Shown here piece after piece: positions 18,109-64,000 of a stretch of 64,000 nucleotides of DNA. The stretch spans positions 453,564-517,563 of the forward strand of contig DLHJ01000016.1 of the NCBI GenBank assembly GCA_002483145.1, given 5' to 3'. A program made the position numbers and the translations under genes. Source of the DNA: Cellvibrio sp. UBA7671. Lineage in GTDB: Bacteria > Pseudomonadota > Gammaproteobacteria > Pseudomonadales > Cellvibrionaceae. Every line of letters begins with the position of its first letter. The first letter of the stretch is position 1. The notes below the pieces were generated by a model. That model was not told the origin of the DNA. It worked only from the letters and a program-made list of their open reading frames with translations, and did not search any database.

Positions 18109-19478
18109 ATGCTCAGGGAATATTGAATCAATATTGGCACTTGATACTGGTCATGCTATTGCCCGCCCGCTATGTAAAATGGCTTGGTGTATTTACTCTG
18201 GCCGTGTTAATTCCTGGCGCAATATTGAATTTTTTTGGCTACTCCATTGTGCTCCATCTTGGCTCGGCATTTAGTCTTTTGCTGATTATGATGGTGGGGA
18301 TGCTAGTGCCGGGACAAATGTTGGCATTAAGAAGCAGTAAGCAGTTCCAGTACATGGCGGATCTGCGTTATCCATTATTTTTTATTGCTTTGGGTTTTTG
18401 GTCGTTAGAGTCATTTTGGTTATCTATTACCCTTACGCTATTAAATCCAAAAGAATTTAGTTTTTATTCAATATTTGCTTTGACAACTATGGCTTTGACA
18501 TGTGCAGCAGTTTTGTTCGCGGTTGTCGGGTCGTATATACAAACTGCGCAAGGTTTTGTCCCGCTGTTTGTGTGGATTCTATTTTTATCTGCAAAAAACA
18601 CCGATTTATTGTCCGTAGCGAACATAGGGATTTATTGGCTAGTTACTGCACTGCTATGGCTGGGAATGTTTGTTTGGTGGGTTCGCTGGCAGCCACAAAA
18701 ATATCTGATTAATTTTATGACCTTACCCGCTGCGGAAATGCAGCGGCAGCAGGCGAATAACGTCCAGGCGATAACTAACGTATTTTCTGCCGTCCCGAAA
18801 ACGCTTGCGGGTTCATTGTTGGCTGGTGTATCGGACGGCATTCAAGCCTGGTGTAAGCGGGAGTTGGGTCAGCTAGTGTTTTTTCTGTTGCTGCTAATGT
18901 TTATGCTGTACTGGGCAAGGCAAATACCCGCCAATGCAGCGAGTATGATGGTCTCCATTTATGTGTTTATTTATATTTGTATTCGCGGTGGGATTATCTT
19001 TCAAAGCTTTTTTAGAAATTTGTATCGCTTGTGGATTAACAGCAGTTATTCCAGGTTGGAAATACTGACTTATATCGAAAGACGATATTTTTTTATGTTG
19101 GTCTCCTCAATAGTGCCTGTTGCGCTTGTTTTTGTGCTGATAAATCACTATCTATTGAATGATTTGCTGGGTTTAATTAAGGGGGCGTACGTTTTATTCA
19201 TCGGCTTTTTGTTCAGCAGTCTAGCGTTCTATGTGGGGTTGCTTGTTTATATAAAAAGCGCTGCCAGCTTTGTTCTGCTTAATTGGATTATCCCTATTGT
19301 GAATCTCGGCCTCATCGGCATCATGGTCTATTTGAATATTCTTTGGGGGCCGAATCCTGCCCATGAGCATGCCAGTTATTTATGGTTTTCGGGTGCATTG
19401 TTAATGTTGACTTTACTGGGGCGCGTTTGGGTTAAGTCGATCTGGAAAAGTGTTAATTTTTACGGGGTGAAAAATTAA
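18105..19478 (+). CDS. ABC transporter membrane protein
   Basis: 457 residues, very hydrophobic with roughly ten to twelve predicted membrane segments and few charged loops. No sequence motif identifies a subfamily; role is inferred from its position between the ATPase and the regulator, overlapping both by 4 and 1 bases. Base composition is slightly AT-richer than its neighbours. It probably forms the translocation path of the 17233-18108 ATPase. Confidence 0.8.
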   Translation: MNAQGILNQYWHLILVMLLPARYVKWLGVFTLAVLIPGAILNFFGYSIVLHLGSAFSLLLIMMVGMLVPGQMLALRSSKQFQYMADLRYPLFFIALGFWSLESFWLSITLTLLNPKEFSFYSIFALTTMALTCAAVLFAVVGSYIQTAQGFVPLFVWILFLSAKNTDLLSVANIGIYWLVTALLWLGMFVWWVRWQPQKYLINFMTLPAAEMQRQQANNVQAITNVFSAVPKTLAGSLLAGVSDGIQAWCKRELGQLVFFLLLLMFMLYWARQIPANAASMMVSIYVFIYICIRGGIIFQSFFRNLYRLWINSSYSRLEILTYIERRYFFMLVSSIVPVALVFVLINHYLLNDLLGLIKGAYVLFIGFLFSSLAFYVGLLVYIKSAASFVLLNWIIPIVNLGLIGIMVYLNILWGPNPAHEHASYLWFSGALLMLTLLGRVWVKSIWKSVNFYGVKN

Positions 19479-57062: not shown

Positions 57063-57398
57063 CCCCAATGTGAGTTGGTTAAATTGCAGAAACTATCGCG
57101 TAGGAAAGTAATGGAGATTTTTTTAAAATAACTACAATTTGTAAAATGCAGATTTTGTATAAATGGTAGTGAATGTAATTTTGAAGTGTCAAAAACTAAT
57201 TTGATGTGGTGGGCCCAGCTGGACTTGAACCAGCGACCTGCCGATTATGAGTCTTCGTTAAACATATAATCCGGTATCACACAATATCACAATAGGTAAC
57301 TAAGTTACTGTTTCTAAACAATTTTATATACATAAAGATCACCCTATGTAATATGAAATCTTATTGTGATGTAACCCCAGTGTAACCCCGGAGCGCAT
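57063..57398. other. 336-base left-end region of the integrated element
   Basis: Outside the att fragment (57207-57253) there is no gene. AT-rich. Repeated TATCACA-type bits near 57275-57291 and an imperfect palindrome GTAAC-TAA-GTTAC (57296-57308) lie upstream of the integrase and could be recombinase arm sites or an operator. Confidence 0.6.
57207..57253 (-). other. Attachment site: 3' half of a CAU tRNA gene
   Basis: Minus strand 57253 to 57207 reads as anticodon loop CTCATAA, stem TCGGC, variable AGGTC, T-arm GCTGG-TTCAAGT-CCAGC, acceptor TGGGCCC, discriminator A and encoded CCA. It has neither a 5' acceptor strand nor a D-arm, and the 5' anticodon stem (GAAGA) does not pair. Homology therefore stops just before the loop. 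The sequence resembles tRNA-Ile2(CAU) more than elongator tRNA-Met. Fits an att core of at least 47 bp left by integration; the intact tRNA should lie at the other end of the element. Confidence 0.8.
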
Positions 57399-58634
57399 GT
57401 GGAACGACAATTCAATTTCACCAAACAAGCCATAGAAGACCTGCCACTACCTGAATCCAGGATTGAATATCGTGATGAAAAGCTGCCTGAGTTGCGCTTG
57501 CGGGTCACTTCCAGCGGAGTTAAAAGCTTTTCTGTTTTTAAGCGTGTATCGGGTGGTAGTCCTGTGCGTATTACCCTTGGTAAATATCCGGGATTGTCAC
57601 CGGTGAGAGCTCGCACGCTGGCACTAAAACATTTGGCTGATTTGAGTGATGGGGTTAACCCGAACGAGCAGCGGCGTGTTGACGCAATGTCAGCTGTAAC
57701 ACTTGGCGAAACCTTTGAGGCTTACAAGCGCTCCCGTAAGCTCCGCGTAACCACTCTCAGGGGGTACGAGGGAGTATTAAGAAATCATCTGCGCAAGCTC
57801 ATCTCAAAGCCGCTGAGCGAGATTGATCGCCGTGTAATTGTTGATCTGCATGCTGGTATCGCTTCGGAAGCTCAGGCTGATTTGACCATGCGGGTATTGC
57901 GGGCAATATTTAACTTCGCAAAATATGAGTATTGTCGTCAGGATGGCTCTTCAATTTTTCCTGAAAACCCAGTCGAGATATTGTCTCACCGTAAGCAATG
58001 GAACAATGTTCGGCGTAGGCAAACACATTTGCGCCCCGGAGAGCTTTCGGTCTTTTATCGAGCCTTACAGGAGGTTCGTGATCAAGAGACACCAACTGGC
58101 CAATCTATTTGTGATGCTATGTTGTTCGCCTTGTTAACAGGGCTTCGGCGTGGCGAGATATTTGGATTGAAGTGGGGGGATGTGGACCTGCGATCTGCGA
58201 TCTTCACTGTTTATGACACAAAAAACGGGTTGCCCCTAGAGCTGCCAATCACTAAAAACATCGACCAGTTATTTAAGCTGCAGAAGGGTCGAATTAGCTC
58301 GGAGTTTGTATTTGCTGCTGATAATGAATATGGCCAGGTGCGGGAACCAAAAAAAGTTGTGGCCAAGGTCAAGGCTTTATCTGCCACCCATTGTGACTTT
58401 CATGATCTAAGGCGGACTTTTGCTACCACGGCAGAACATCTGGATGTTGGAAGTTATAAGCTCAAGCGCTTGATGAATCACTCTACAGGGCGAGATGATG
58501 TGACTGCTGGATATATTGTTTTGACTGCGGAAACATTGAGGCTGTCTGCGGATAAGATCCAAAGCTGTCTTTTCCAAGGTATGTTTAACTCGAATGTTGT
58601 TCAAATTACTGGTGCAGCCAGAGGAGCCATGTAG
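57399..58634 (+). CDS. Tyrosine recombinase integrase
   Basis: 411 residues from a GTG with GGAG upstream. DUF4102-type N-terminal arm-binding domain (EYRDEKLPELRLRVT), a core-binding SAM-like region (about 105-210) and a C-terminal catalytic domain. All active residues are seen: Arg250 (LTGLRRGEI), His335 and Arg338 (HDLRR), His361 (LMNHSTG) and Tyr372 (TAGYIV). Adjacent to the tRNA att fragment, so it probably catalysed this insertion. Confidence 0.95.
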   Translation: MERQFNFTKQAIEDLPLPESRIEYRDEKLPELRLRVTSSGVKSFSVFKRVSGGSPVRITLGKYPGLSPVRARTLALKHLADLSDGVNPNEQRRVDAMSAVTLGETFEAYKRSRKLRVTTLRGYEGVLRNHLRKLISKPLSEIDRRVIVDLHAGIASEAQADLTMRVLRAIFNFAKYEYCRQDGSSIFPENPVEILSHRKQWNNVRRRQTHLRPGELSVFYRALQEVRDQETPTGQSICDAMLFALLTGLRRGEIFGLKWGDVDLRSAIFTVYDTKNGLPLELPITKNIDQLFKLQKGRISSEFVFAADNEYGQVREPKKVVAKVKALSATHCDFHDLRRTFATTAEHLDVGSYKLKRLMNHSTGRDDVTAGYIVLTAETLRLSADKIQSCLFQGMFNSNVVQITGAARGAM

Positions 58635-58868: not shown

Positions 58869-59537
58869 TCAGCCTGTAAGAAAAATAGAGGTTGTTGGTC
58901 GCTCTATTGCGTGCTTGTTTCGACTGGCAAAGTTGAGAGCGCCAACATCTATACCATGCTCAATGGGCAGCATTGGCAGGCAAAGTTCAATAAAAATTAA
59001 TGGAAGTGGATAAAACTCAGCTGAAACTCTAAATTCTTGAACACCACTAAATTGTATGTGGGATGGTGAATGGGCTGTAACTTCATTGTCATAGTCAAAT
59101 CTGATATGTGACGTGTTTGATGGCGATTGTTTTTTTACTTCCAATAGTTCAACCCAATTGAAAATATGATCATAAAGAGCTTCATCTTCTCTCTCCAGTG
59201 CATCATCTGCGGCATCGATCAGAGAGTCCAGAGAGTCGCTCGTAGAGATAGGCTTTGGATAATAAGCTAACCTAGCTTTAGCTAAGCAGTCATCCTCCGT
59301 AAATTCATAATAGAATTGAAAGAATGACCCATCTGCTAACAGCAGTGAGTATTGATGATGGTCAATAAGATATTGGTATTCCAATGGGTAGTAGACATTT
59401 TTATGAATGCCGGGTTTTCGTCCATTCCACGTTATAGTTCTGTTTGCTTGTTGAAGAGATATGCAGTCAACTTGCGTAGCTGGACGCAGAAATTCCTTAA
59501 CATTATGTATCCCTTGTGCGGCCATTGCATATTTCAT
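58869..59537 (-). CDS. DUF2290 domain protein
   Basis: 222 residues. Matches DUF2290 by LADGSFFQFYYEF, HIRFDYD, HSPSHIQFSG and FIELCLPM. No known activity. Starts ten bases after the stop of an SF1 helicase (GGTGG before ATG), so the two are coupled. Likely a partner of the helicase in an element-borne system. Confidence 0.78.
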   Translation of the reverse strand: MKYAMAAQGIHNVKEFLRPATQVDCISLQQANRTITWNGRKPGIHKNVYYPLEYQYLIDHHQYSLLLADGSFFQFYYEFTEDDCLAKARLAYYPKPISTSDSLDSLIDAADDALEREDEALYDHIFNWVELLEVKKQSPSNTSHIRFDYDNEVTAHSPSHIQFSGVQEFRVSAEFYPLPLIFIELCLPMLPIEHGIDVGALNFASRNKHAIERPTTSIFLTG

Positions 59538-59547
59538 GTGGCCACCA

Positions 59548-61752
59548 TCAATTGTCTTTTGAGTGATCTATGAGCAGTTGCCTAAGCTCTGGATCGCTCT
59601 TTAAAAGCGCAAGCATATTTTGTATCTGATCAAGTTCTTTATCTGTCTTTTTGAGAAAACTCTTGCTTCTTCTTATTGAATCAGGATCAGGAAACTCGAA
59701 ATTAAAAAATGGAAAATCATTCTTTATAGCGTTAATTTCTGCTTCTAAGTGAGACATGTTTGGACCAATCCCAGAAATGTAGCACCAGCCTCTAGATCTT
59801 GTGACGGCGACAAAAAAAGCGTTTCTCATGCGTAGAGTGAAGTCATTAACAACATTTTGAGCATTTAGGACAAATACAATATTGGCTTCATTTCCCTTTG
59901 CTCGATATGGAGTTGTTATAGTAACAAAGCCTTTGGGTTTGAATACATCTGCGCTTTCAACGTAGCCTGGCAAAACAGATTGAATATTTCTTTCAGCCAG
60001 AGCTCTTTGTATGGCCAGCATTGATTCTTTATTATTACCTGGGTGTAGATTGACTATAATAATTTCTTCAGGTGATACACCCTGTTGAAATATTAGTTCA
60101 TGAACCTTTTCTCTGATGTAAGAAAGCTGGTCGGCTTGGTCAACACATGTTTTTGCTTGTATTAAATTTCGAGGGTTTTTTTGATTTTCATTTAATATCG
60201 TCTCTAACAAGTTTTTGCTGTTTTCATCTGGTCGCTCAACTTTAACTTGATCGCCTTTAGAGAATATCAACGACTGCGGTTCATGAATTCTATAGCCAAT
60301 TGCATTCCAATCATTTTTGTATGCGAAGGGTGTTGTCGGATTCGATGTATAAATGCTCATAGCAACTCCATGAGCAGTAAGTAACACGGGGCGGGGTGTT
60401 CTATAGCAGTTTGGAAGTACGAAATCTTTAGGAATGTTTCCTTCGTATTTCCCATCTAGGGCGCTGTTGGGTATATTTGGCTCACCGGCTGCATTTTTTC
60501 CAAATAAATCCTCAGGCTCTTTAATTTCACTATTTCGAAGTGATTGAAACTCGTCGTAAGCCCAGATAATTCTTTTTTCTACTCCAGTTCCTTTCGCAAG
60601 TTTAAAAACCACTTGAAACACTTCGTCAGGGAAGTCTTGTGCTTCATCTATTAAAATAAGGTCATATTCTGGCTCGATTCTATCTCCAACTTTTTGGAGG
60701 AGATCCTTATAAACATATTCGAGGGCATCGCCTTTTCCTCTTGCATCGGACAAGGTTAATGGCAATAAACCATATTTATTACATAGCTGAGAGTACAGCC
60801 CTGGTTTCTGTTTTCCTCCCCAAGCATGCAGTACATGTAAGGAGTTTTCAAAATCCGGGGCTCTTTTTGCTTCTAGTGTGTAGTACTTTGAAATAAGGTT
60901 TTGAACGTGATGGTATAAGCTCTGTGTATTGAATAAATACAATATTTTGTAGTTACTAAATCTTTTATGAGTAATTGCAGCTTTCAGGCATAGAACGATG
61001 GTTTTTCCGGTGCCTGCGAGTCCTCTTATCCGTTGGGGGCCTGGTGGTAGTTGCAGAGATGCCAGACGTTGGGCGTCATCTTGTTTAAATGTTGACTTCA
61101 AAGATTTCTGGATATAATCATTTACAGTAACAAGGCTCTCTTGCTCAGCAAATCCCTGCTTGCTCTCATAAATAAATGTGCCTTCCAGTAAAGAATATAT
61201 TTTTCCTAATTCGGAATCTGAGCAGTTGTATCCCATGGGAAGCGTGTTGAGCCAAGCTTGGAGGTCTTCAGCGCTTATAGACGTTATAGACTCTTGATAC
61301 TCCTCTGTCAGGTCAGCTATATCTTGTTTGTTATTCTTGCAAAAAACCAGTGCACTAATAATGGGGACTTTGACAGATTTTGTTTTTCTGTTGTAAAGGC
61401 TGATGTCATTTTTGAGTCGGCTTATAACTTCATCCGAATACAAATCTACCACAAAGCTTCTTGCGATCCTTAATTGGCCATCACCTGACTTCCAGAGCTC
61501 GCTCCCATCTTGTTCCAAGGCCTCAGTAATTTCATCCTCTACAATGTCCAGCAGAATAACTCCATGCTCTTTGGTAACAATTATAAAGGATGGGACGTCT
61601 TCATCGGATGCTCGACCAAGAGTAGTGAGTTTATATGCGATATAGCCTGAGCATTGTGAAAAGGAAGTTTGGACTATGTTTGCAATATTAAAATGAAAAG
61701 GACGGTTCTCGAGAGCAAGGGAGCCTGATAAAAACTGAAAGGATGATGTCAT
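59548..61752 (-). CDS. SF1-type (UvrD/Rep-like) helicase
   Basis: 734 residues. The N-terminal 200 residues contain a nuclease-like fold segment (FIIVTKEHGVILLDIVEDE) reminiscent of NERD or PD-D/ExK domains, but the catalytic lysine position is not a Lys, so nuclease activity is doubtful. SF1 motifs: Walker A GLAGTGKTIV (about 243-252), DEAQD (366-370), TPYRAKGNEA and motif VI AFFVAVTRSRG. ATG follows CAGGAG at eight bases. AT-rich compared with the chromosomal part. Second gene of a three-gene unit with the 32-residue ORF and DUF2290. Confidence 0.85.
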   Translation of the reverse strand: MTSSFQFLSGSLALENRPFHFNIANIVQTSFSQCSGYIAYKLTTLGRASDEDVPSFIIVTKEHGVILLDIVEDEITEALEQDGSELWKSGDGQLRIARSFVVDLYSDEVISRLKNDISLYNRKTKSVKVPIISALVFCKNNKQDIADLTEEYQESITSISAEDLQAWLNTLPMGYNCSDSELGKIYSLLEGTFIYESKQGFAEQESLVTVNDYIQKSLKSTFKQDDAQRLASLQLPPGPQRIRGLAGTGKTIVLCLKAAITHKRFSNYKILYLFNTQSLYHHVQNLISKYYTLEAKRAPDFENSLHVLHAWGGKQKPGLYSQLCNKYGLLPLTLSDARGKGDALEYVYKDLLQKVGDRIEPEYDLILIDEAQDFPDEVFQVVFKLAKGTGVEKRIIWAYDEFQSLRNSEIKEPEDLFGKNAAGEPNIPNSALDGKYEGNIPKDFVLPNCYRTPRPVLLTAHGVAMSIYTSNPTTPFAYKNDWNAIGYRIHEPQSLIFSKGDQVKVERPDENSKNLLETILNENQKNPRNLIQAKTCVDQADQLSYIREKVHELIFQQGVSPEEIIIVNLHPGNNKESMLAIQRALAERNIQSVLPGYVESADVFKPKGFVTITTPYRAKGNEANIVFVLNAQNVVNDFTLRMRNAFFVAVTRSRGWCYISGIGPNMSHLEAEINAIKNDFPFFNFEFPDPDSIRRSKSFLKKTDKELDQIQNMLALLKSDPELRQLLIDHSKDN

Positions 61753-61755
61753 TGT

Positions 61756-61854
61756 TCAGACTCCTGATTTTTGTATGGTGCTGGTTAATTTATCGTCTTT
61801 AAAGCACCAGAATGCTTTGTCTTTTAAGGCCGTTACTCCCTTTGTTGCTGTCAT
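61756..61854 (-). CDS. 32-residue leader peptide or small protein
   Basis: Starts ATG-ACA-GCA and ends TGA at 61756, three bases before the helicase ATG. It has AAAAAGGATTTATCAA directly upstream, a strong ribosome site, and its 3' end carries the AGGAG used by the helicase. The peptide MTATKGVTALKDKAFW... has two acidic/lysine-rich stretches and one Cys. It could be a translational coupler, an antitoxin-like peptide or a regulator. Too short to classify. Confidence 0.55.
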   Translation of the reverse strand: MTATKGVTALKDKAFWCFKDDKLTSTIQKSGV

Positions 61855-61913
61855 TTGATAAATCCTTTTTAATTTACTTTTCAAAAGTATATAGCTTTAT
61901 TTTGGTTGTTTTT

Positions 61914-61927
61914 TGACCTGCAGGTCA
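61914..61927. promoter_or_regulatory. 14-bp palindrome upstream of the helicase unit
   Basis: TGACCTGCAGGTCA is a perfect palindrome about 60 bases before the 32-residue ORF. On the minus strand it lies where the -35 of a promoter with -10 TATATA would be, suggesting repressor control. Confidence 0.5.
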
Positions 61928-62027: not shown

Positions 62028-62063
62028 GCCGAAAACCGCACTAAGTATTAGCGGGTTTTCGGC
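62028..62063 (-). terminator. Hairpin after the mobilisation operon
   Basis: GCCGAAAACC(GC) pairs with (GC)GGGTTTTCGGC across an 11-base loop, 10 bases past the last gene; one bulged base and only three T follow, so a weak terminator. Confidence 0.55.
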
Positions 62064-62759: not shown

Positions 62760-64000
62760 TTAGATATTTGGAGATTTTGAATTGTCGAAATTGCGGCGAG
62801 TTTGCTGCTCGTCATTATCACTTTGAAAGTCATTGGCGTTATCAAATCGGTTGGTTTCCTCGTGTGCTTTATCCAGCTTTTCTGGAGCTGATTTAATGTC
62901 AGAAGCCAAGCCATTTTGGGGCAGCTTTGGTTTGTATTTTTCCAGTTCTTCTGGGGTGGGTTTATAGCCCTGCACCTCTATGCCCATCATTTGCCCTTGC
63001 GCCCAAATTCGGCGGCGATATTCGTCATCACCGAAGGCTCGAATTTCTTTCCACTCACCCTTACGGAGCTTTCCTTGCGCAAGCTCAAGTTCGGCAGCCA
63101 GCGCCCACTCACTTATTGATTGGGAATAGATAGCTTTACCTGTATCTCTAAATGCTTCTTCGCCCTTTAATTTGCCTGCTCCCCAGCGATATATGCCTGC
63201 GTCGTCGGCTCGAAACATGTTAATTACACGACCCTTATTCGGATCAATTTCAACGGGTTTCCAATACTCCGCCAGCTCTTGCTTTTGAAGTTTTTTAATT
63301 GGTAAGTTCTGCGCTTTTTCGGCCTCTTCTTGGGAGCTTGCAACTCCGCCGTGATGAGGTAAAAGTTCAGTGTTAATTGCTGCTTTTTTCATTTTCAGAC
63401 TCCTAACGTCTTGGTGGGTTAAACCTATATTGATAATGTTGTTTGCTTGTTTAATTAACTCATTGGCCTGCCAGCGAGTTGCACGATCGATGTACCCCAT
63501 GCGAGCCAACTGTGTGTGAATTTTTCCAACGTGAATTTGAGGGATTTTATGGGTTATCCCTTGCTCTTTTAGGGATAGCTCACTGATGCGGATGTCAAGG
63601 CCTGCTTTTTTTAATTCTTCATTGACAATATCCGCCCATGTTTTCCTGATTTTTGATATTTGTTGGCTTCCTGTAGGCAAGCCATTTTTTCTTAAGCGGT
63701 CATCGCTCCAATTTAGTTTTATTTTTCCTTCTGAAAGTGTTCCATCGGCTTGCATTGATCTTGTTGTCATTAAAAGGTGAGCATGAATATTTCTGTGGTC
63801 GCCTTTCTTGCCTGGAGCGTGGACGCAAACGTCTATAGCTGCACCGTACTCGGTGATTAAATGGGTAGAAAATTCACTAATTATTCGCTGATGTGCATCT
63901 CTCATTAATTCGTGCGGAAGTGCAAGTTGCCATTCTCTGGCTACTCTTGCGTTAGATGCTTTTTCTGACTTCTCAGCTAAATTCCATAGCTCAGATCGAG
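62760..64000 (-). CDS. MobA/MobL-family relaxase (partial, runs off right edge)
   Basis: At least 412 residues; the frame stays open to the window edge, so the N-terminus is missing. The segment nearest the edge, RSELWNLAEKSEK then NARVAREWQLALPHEL, and the HUH motif NIHAHLLMTTRS match MobA/MobL (MobQ-type) relaxases. They nick oriT and carry the strand in conjugal mobilisation. The catalytic Tyr should be in the missing N-terminus. The C-terminal 130 residues are charged and low-complexity. Its presence makes the element mobilisable. Confidence 0.9.
   Translation of the reverse strand, partial: RSELWNLAEKSEKASNARVAREWQLALPHELMRDAHQRIISEFSTHLITEYGAAIDVCVHAPGKKGDHRNIHAHLLMTTRSMQADGTLSEGKIKLNWSDDRLRKNGLPTGSQQISKIRKTWADIVNEELKKAGLDIRISELSLKEQGITHKIPQIHVGKIHTQLARMGYIDRATRWQANELIKQANNIINIGLTHQDVRSLKMKKAAINTELLPHHGGVASSQEEAEKAQNLPIKKLQKQELAEYWKPVEIDPNKGRVINMFRADDAGIYRWGAGKLKGEEAFRDTGKAIYSQSISEWALAAELELAQGKLRKGEWKEIRAFGDDEYRRRIWAQGQMMGIEVQGYKPTPEELEKYKPKLPQNGLASDIKSAPEKLDKAHEETNRFDNANDFQSDNDEQQTRRNFDNSKSPNI

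Follow-up and report, generated by a model that had tools for sequence, protein, structure and literature searches.

A divergent Helicase-DUF2290 gene pair on a mobilisable element at a tRNA-Met gene of Cellvibrio sp. UBA7671

Results and Discussion

A helicase gene and a DUF2290 gene lie in tandem on the minus strand

The window analysed here is a stretch of 64,000 nucleotides from Cellvibrio sp. UBA7671 (assembly GCA_002483145.1, contig DLHJ01000016.1, positions 453,564 to 517,563). Within a mobilisable element bounded by repeats of a tRNA-Met gene, it carries a gene for a UvrD/PcrA-like helicase of superfamily 1 (SF1; 734 amino acids, positions 59548-61752), followed by the gene of a DUF2290 protein (222 amino acids, 58869-59537) and preceded by an open reading frame (ORF) of 32 codons (61756-61854), all on the minus strand. 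Three bases (61753-61755) separate the 32-codon ORF from the helicase gene, and 10 bases (59538-59547) separate the latter from the DUF2290 gene. Sequences resembling ribosome-binding sites were read by eye before the 32-codon ORF (AAGGA) and before the helicase (AGGAG). An earlier sequence-only reading had described three closely spaced frames with ribosome sites, and our coordinates and motifs agree; the interval that it gave, 59548-61854, holds the 32-codon ORF and the helicase, and the DUF2290 gene lies outside it. Its assignment of the helicase to SF1 was also borne out: the motifs GLAGTGKT and LILIDEAQ are intact, and the C-terminal part matches Pfam UvrD_C_2 (4.5e-9). Both reading frames of the pair are open and full length.

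The helicase was matched by the PADLOC model Helicase PDLC03002 (E 7.2e-109, 363 bits, residues 58-692 on positions 52-649 of the 707 in the profile), a match judged by E-value, bits and coverage rather than by PADLOC's own score threshold. The product of the second gene was matched by Pfam DUF2290 (3e-11, 43.5 bits against a cut-off of 25) and by PADLOC DUF2290 PDLC02998 (E 1.8e-15). The genes adjoin on the same strand, helicase first, and the helicase groups with DUF2290-linked helicases in the tree described below. As judged from these sequence features, the pair is a divergent member of an already named two-gene defence system, Helicase-DUF2290. The sequence-only reading had not recognised the combination as a named system, and this was wrong because PADLOC models match both proteins and a published system exists.

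The source of Helicase-DUF2290 is Rousset et al. 2022, where inhibition of T7 is reported (PMC9122126), and the DefenseFinder name, Rst Helicase+DUF2290, is given in PMC12278908. Genes PA1372/PA1371 of P. aeruginosa PAO1 are equated with the Helicase-DUF2290 system in PMC11637435, and are a pair of the same kind by that description, not by sequence comparison. Unlike the phage-tested Helicase-DUF2290, they are known through plasmid cost: mutations in the PA1372 helicase relieve the cost of plasmid pNUK73 (PMC4410645, PMC4208098); they also reduce rep expression and return the transcription profile, including SOS, to its earlier state (PMC4410645). Plasmid cost, SOS and high rep expression all depend on PA1372 (PMC4410645, PMC4208098). 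The PA1372/PA1371 pair is low in GC and horizontally acquired (PMC4410645). The accessible parts of the articles that name, list or test the DUF2290 system do not give its mechanism.

The window pair shares with the system of Rousset et al. the order helicase then DUF2290, carriage by a mobile element and PADLOC matches to both proteins. It differs from other members in sequence: its helicase is 26-30% identical to 10 others and scores 363 bits against 1165 for locus L016, has ∼20 additional residues in the N-terminal domain, and does not keep D55 (see below); its DUF2290 protein is 21-25% identical to the DUF2290 of 10 other linked loci. The carrier also differs, being an integrative mobilisable element here and a P4-like satellite or prophage in the Rousset-type system.

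Gabija (GajA/GajB) and Hachiman (HamA/HamB) likewise combine a helicase with a partner protein, but the partner in the window is DUF2290. Gabija was rejected since the partner is not the OLD/TOPRIM protein GajA, and no GajB model scored above 27.7 bits against the window helicase; Hachiman was rejected since the HamA (DUF1837) partner is missing, and no HamA or HamB model matched either window protein. The NCBIfam helicase STM2767 was also discarded (112.3 bits against a curated cut-off of 550).

The helicase-DUF2290 order recurs in distant genomes

The sequence-only reading had proposed that other genomes be searched for the pair, and that rare adjacency would count against it; the outcome was the opposite. 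DUF2290 was found in 9 of the 398 genomes scanned from the phylum, with a helicase directly upstream in eight; at the ninth (L021) the contig ends. Conversely, a helicase match (E up to 1e-50) was found in 5 of 369 genomes of the class, the window's own included, and DUF2290 adjoins four of them and is absent at one (L028). Genome contigs were also searched with a profile built from the helicase alignment, and 54 loci were fetched from at least 586 matching stretches. Among these 54 listed loci, 39 have a downstream DUF2290. In 38 of these it begins between -149 and +12 bases, and the overlaps are partly due to start choice; in the thirty-ninth, L058, a short DUF2290 ORF lies 169 bases past the helicase. 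One further locus, L075, is decayed and retains only a fragment of DUF2290. No DUF2290 was found at 14 of the 54 (L060, L063, L064, L066, L068, L069, L072 and L076-L082). These include distant helicases below 100 bits (L076-L082), a broken copy (L068) and a locus whose contig stops short of the next gene (L069). In viral contigs, both DUF2290 loci found (2/2) have a helicase upstream. The DUF2290-linked helicases are spread over many phyla and include one from an archaeal metagenome-assembled genome (L033).

Close relatives of the window copy were scarce. No relative of the window helicase was found in phages or in another 20 genomes from the genus, nor, with this helicase as sole query, in viral contigs. 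The helicase matched 49 plasmid records, all below 60% identity, and in three of them the match spans at least 80% of the query; these are matches of the helicase only. No DUF2290 was found in 56 relatives. The window DUF2290 protein had no match in plasmids, where relatives of so divergent a query may be missed.

We also scanned the neighbours of the linked loci (proteins of at least 120 amino acids within 4 kb, at most two per side), leaving out the near-duplicates L018, L039, L042, L065 and L084 and the other genome-search loci L015-L027. Among 127 proteins from 37 loci, matches at E up to 1e-10 included those to type I restriction (3), HamB (2), HamA (2) and PglX (2) models, counted among the 25 of 205 families listed for PADLOC; for Pfam, 25 of 154 families were listed. 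The sequence-only reading had proposed a test of linkage to defence islands or relaxases. The window pair has a relaxase and RnlA/RnlB on the same element; for its relatives the linkage consists of these matches to type I restriction, Hachiman and PglX models, from a scan without a control set.

DUF2290-linked helicases lack the catalytic lysine of NERD

The helicases were compared in a set of 59 rows, from which L075-L082 (below 250 bits), L068 (short, broken) and L021 (no helicase on its stretch) had been excluded. The window helicase shares with NERD helicases (e.g., L028 and L060) a common core and an alignable N-terminal domain (about residues 1-160), and they stand one branch away in the tree. 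The nuclease-like N-terminus of the sequence-only reading is upheld in that sense, but the catalytic residues are missing. The columns of the NERD D...E-x-K motif correspond to window residues 55, 69 and 71, which read S55, D69 and V71. None of the 52 DUF2290-linked helicases, window included, has the catalytic lysine, and the aspartate of column 55 is kept in 47. All three residues are present in six of the seven rows without a found DUF2290 (L028, L060, L063, L064, L066 and L069). In five of these six (all save L069) the contig continues beyond the helicase, and no DUF2290 is found there; in both respects the linked group differs. The Pfam NERD model exceeded its cut-off in four of the six (L028, L060, L063 and L069), and in none of the three linked helicases scanned (L029, L033 and L016) nor in the window.

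An active NERD or PD-(D/E)XK nuclease in the window helicase was rejected, since the canonical D...(D/E)-x-K is not present. A shifted form of the motif, D/E55...D/E72-x-K, is compatible with 4 of the 52 linked rows but not with the window (S55, E74), so a few DUF2290-linked members may have a variant nuclease site, the window not among them. For the N-terminal domain itself we aligned the window with 46 of the 47 available rows, L072 being left out. L072 (834-3197) has an altered P-loop, GLSGSGKS, and a second helicase C-terminal fragment lies alongside.

In the unrooted tree, the 52 linked helicases and L072 lie on one side of a branch, and the six NERD helicases on the other, with support of 100/98. 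Because they share that side, lysine loss together with DUF2290 is one event. These results suggest that the DUF2290-bearing helicase lineage lost the key catalytic residue of a built-in nuclease domain. No report of this loss was found in the literature searched, from which subscription journals were mostly absent and whose articles were accessible in part. The contrast between 0/52 linked and 6/6 NERD-type helicases gives a concrete model, in which the effector moved from cis to trans: the ancestor would have been a self-contained NERD nuclease-helicase, whose nuclease was switched off once DUF2290 took over the effector role, with the window copy as a separate deep lineage. We put this forward as a tentative scenario.

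A model of helicase residues 1-244 (predicted local distance difference test, pLDDT, 74) shows the order alpha-beta-beta-beta-alpha-beta, which is that of PD-(D/E)XK folds. With Foldseek the model had no match in the PDB at E up to 0.001; the top PDB matches were the human Schlafens SLFN11 and SLFN14 (E 4.4e-3, probability 0.98, TM-score 0.36). By sequence, no SLFN chain was matched at E up to 10. The helicase core scored 22.1 bits against Pfam SLFN-g3_helicase (PF09848), under its cut-off of 24, and a Schlafen group 3 helicase was rejected on this count. We take the Schlafen resemblance of the predicted N-terminal fold only as a lead. As part of the same tentative scenario, the C-terminal half of human group 3 Schlafens may be built on this plan of a degenerate N-terminal domain joined to an SF1 core.

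The pair is cargo of a mobilisable element

The element measures 15,857 bases (15.9 kb) from start to start and is bounded by 47-bp repeats of the tRNA-Met 3′ end, the left att copy lying at 57207-57253 and the right one beyond the window, inside the tRNA-Met gene. Coordinates outside the window refer to L023, a stretch of the same contig that runs past the window (L023:2932-2951 corresponds to window 57369-57388). A tyrosine integrase is encoded at 57399-58634 on the plus strand (Phage_integrase 2e-13, Arm-DNA-bind_3 3.5e-11), and a MobA/MobL (MobQ-like) relaxase at 62760-64000 on the minus strand (NCBIfam MobQ, 169 bits against a cut-off of 200), running past the window end. The repeat and the relaxase confirm the mobilisable element that the sequence-only reading had proposed. 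Its statement that the unit lies away from the transfer genes holds in part: the relaxase shares the strand of the unit and ends ∼0.9 kb upstream of it, and two small ORFs and a 10-bp perfect inverted repeat (62028-62063, minus strand) lie between. This repeat, at the boundary of the relaxase-side genes and the unit, looks terminator-like by eye and is not among the sites listed by the terminator scan.

The element also encodes RepC, an AAA_25 ATPase (RepA-like by position) and an excisionase-like protein under its family's cut-off. At its other end (L023:17019-18587) lies an RnlA/RnlB toxin-antitoxin (RnlB 1.2e-20; RnlA domains down to 1.8e-28), which we take, by family name, to be a second anti-phage cargo; neither RnlA nor RnlB had a PADLOC match. 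The system is seen here as cargo of a mobilisable element alongside RnlA/RnlB.

A search with the relaxase (E up to 1e-60) gave one other genome, G1063, among 390 of the order. A 33-kb stretch of it near tRNA-Met carries homologues of the integrase (82% identity), relaxase (57%), DotA/TraY-family protein (65%), excisionase-like protein (73%) and RepA-like protein. Nothing in these 33 kb matched the helicase, DUF2290, RnlA or RnlB at E up to 1e-4, and an att repeat of the G1063 element was not found. Since this backbone lacks the pair and RnlA/RnlB, the helicase-DUF2290 pair is best read as cargo.

The sequence-only reading had left the choice between defence and element maintenance, and the comparison with G1063 bears on it. 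A housekeeping helicase pair serving replication or transfer of the element would fit the presence of RepC, RepA-like replication genes and the relaxase, and SF1 helicases do serve in plasmid replication. But the homologous backbone of G1063 has no such pair, the pair is found in many phyla, and a characterised relative acts on phage (PMC9122126). We therefore regard maintenance as quite unlikely; defence is supported by that T7 report and by the company of RnlA/RnlB.

Some minor features of the element were also recorded. In G1063 (L087/L088) the integrase lies at the opposite end and in the opposite orientation relative to the relaxase. A DotA/TraY-family gene (L023:10361-12679, TIGR04346 1.8e-127) is present, and apart from it and the relaxase no type IV secretion family was matched by the other scanned element proteins. 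A protein of 346 amino acids beside RnlB (L023:15961-17001), unmatched in Pfam, PADLOC and NCBIfam, is possibly a further cargo. Just inside both ends (L023:2932-2951 and 18475-18494) lies an identical 20-bp repeat, ATGTAACCCCAGTGTAACCC, which may represent integrase arm sites.

The DUF2290 protein as putative effector

In an alignment of the window with 40 of the 41 available DUF2290 sequences (the short L058 left out), D69, R146, H160, R170 and F182 are invariant in the 41 rows, and D148 and H156 occur in at least 90%; the window protein has all seven. The predicted model is of middling confidence (pLDDT 76). No PDB sequence relative, no PDB fold match (best E 0.23) and no convincing BFVD match (best E 0.056) were found. 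As to a TumE-like toxin, comparison with one TumE-family protein by hhalign, a weak test with a single-sequence template, gave a probability of 0.2%.

Taking these data together, we think it probable, though well short of certain, that the window carries a divergent two-gene Helicase-DUF2290 anti-phage system, borne as cargo by the tRNA-Met element, in which the helicase activates a DUF2290 effector. The SF1 helicase would load on DNA ends or single strands arising from replication of an invader (phage, plasmid or rival element), with the NERD domain, its catalytic motif lost, as a docking or DNA-grip module. ATP-driven movement of the helicase would then activate the DUF2290 protein, which would stop the invader or the infected cell. 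That DUF2290 would act once the helicase is engaged is proposed by analogy with Hachiman and Gabija. Protection from phage, reported for the relative as T7 inhibition, would likewise extend to the window copy by analogy.

The chief rival assigns the parts the other way round: the helicase itself would act, regulated by DUF2290 as its inhibitor or loader, with fork remodelling making invader replication fail or over-fire. In its favour, the compensatory mutations reported for the pair in PAO1 are in PA1372, the helicase, without which plasmid rep expression and SOS are reduced (PMC4410645), and DUF2290 has no recognised fold. Against this, the conservation of D69, R146, H160 and R170 in 41/41 rows, and of D148 and H156 in nearly all, suggests an active site or a ligand site more than a plain scaffold, and we consider DUF2290 as regulator possible but doubtful. 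The finding also ties Helicase-DUF2290 to the plasmid-cost genetics of PAO1.

Several observations weigh against the proposal of a defence pair with DUF2290 as effector. DUF2290 has no recognised catalytic motif, and since no solved structure or such motif matches it, its effector role is inferred only. PDLC03002 also matches three helicases without DUF2290 (264-318 bits), so the helicase score alone is not decisive for membership. As to the lysine, its association with DUF2290 rests on one tree event and is not independently replicated; the tree holds only two independent pairs, which puts significance out of reach. L072 lacks the lysine and has a linked-like N-terminus although no DUF2290 was found there, and at L069, which has all three NERD residues, the contig ends before the next gene. 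Finally, the end branch of the window helicase (2.92) exceeds every other in the tree, and the placement of this helicase, which is not starred, is unsure, so the function of the window copy may have drifted. A grouping of the window helicase with L022, L029 and L033 alone, absent from the best tree, was not rejected (p-AU 0.223).

The long branch and the serine in place of the common D55 would also fit a non-functional relic. Yet the two frames are open over their full length, the helicase motifs are intact, and D69, R146, D148, H156, H160 and R170 of DUF2290 are kept; a decayed copy is very improbable.

The 32-codon ORF and the region ahead of the unit

A three-gene system that includes the 32-residue peptide, as the sequence-only reading had it, was not sustained, the peptide having no found relative and a frequency near chance. 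When 293 genomes of the order were searched, the window itself was recovered (E 2.7e-17), and the next best was E 0.06 per genome in the 292 others. In 11 relatives no similar peptide was seen ahead of the helicase, although for three of them the upstream sequence is limited to ∼100-155 bases. ATG ORFs of 20-70 codons whose end falls between -15 and +10 relative to the start of the helicase, taken as that of the longest ORF, occur at 9 of the 49 linked loci (out of 52) with at least 150 bases upstream, the window being one of the nine, compared with 15% of 980 mononucleotide shuffles. RNA structure over the ORF was not unusual (z -0.15). The 32-codon ORF has a good ribosome site of its own, and that of the helicase falls within its last codons; it is therefore a possible coupled leader of the helicase.

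Promoter-like and terminator-like sites were at or below chance in number. A palindrome search gave two candidate operators ahead of the unit, an inverted repeat at 61872-61892 and a perfect 14-bp palindrome, TGACCTGCAGGTCA, at 61914-61927.

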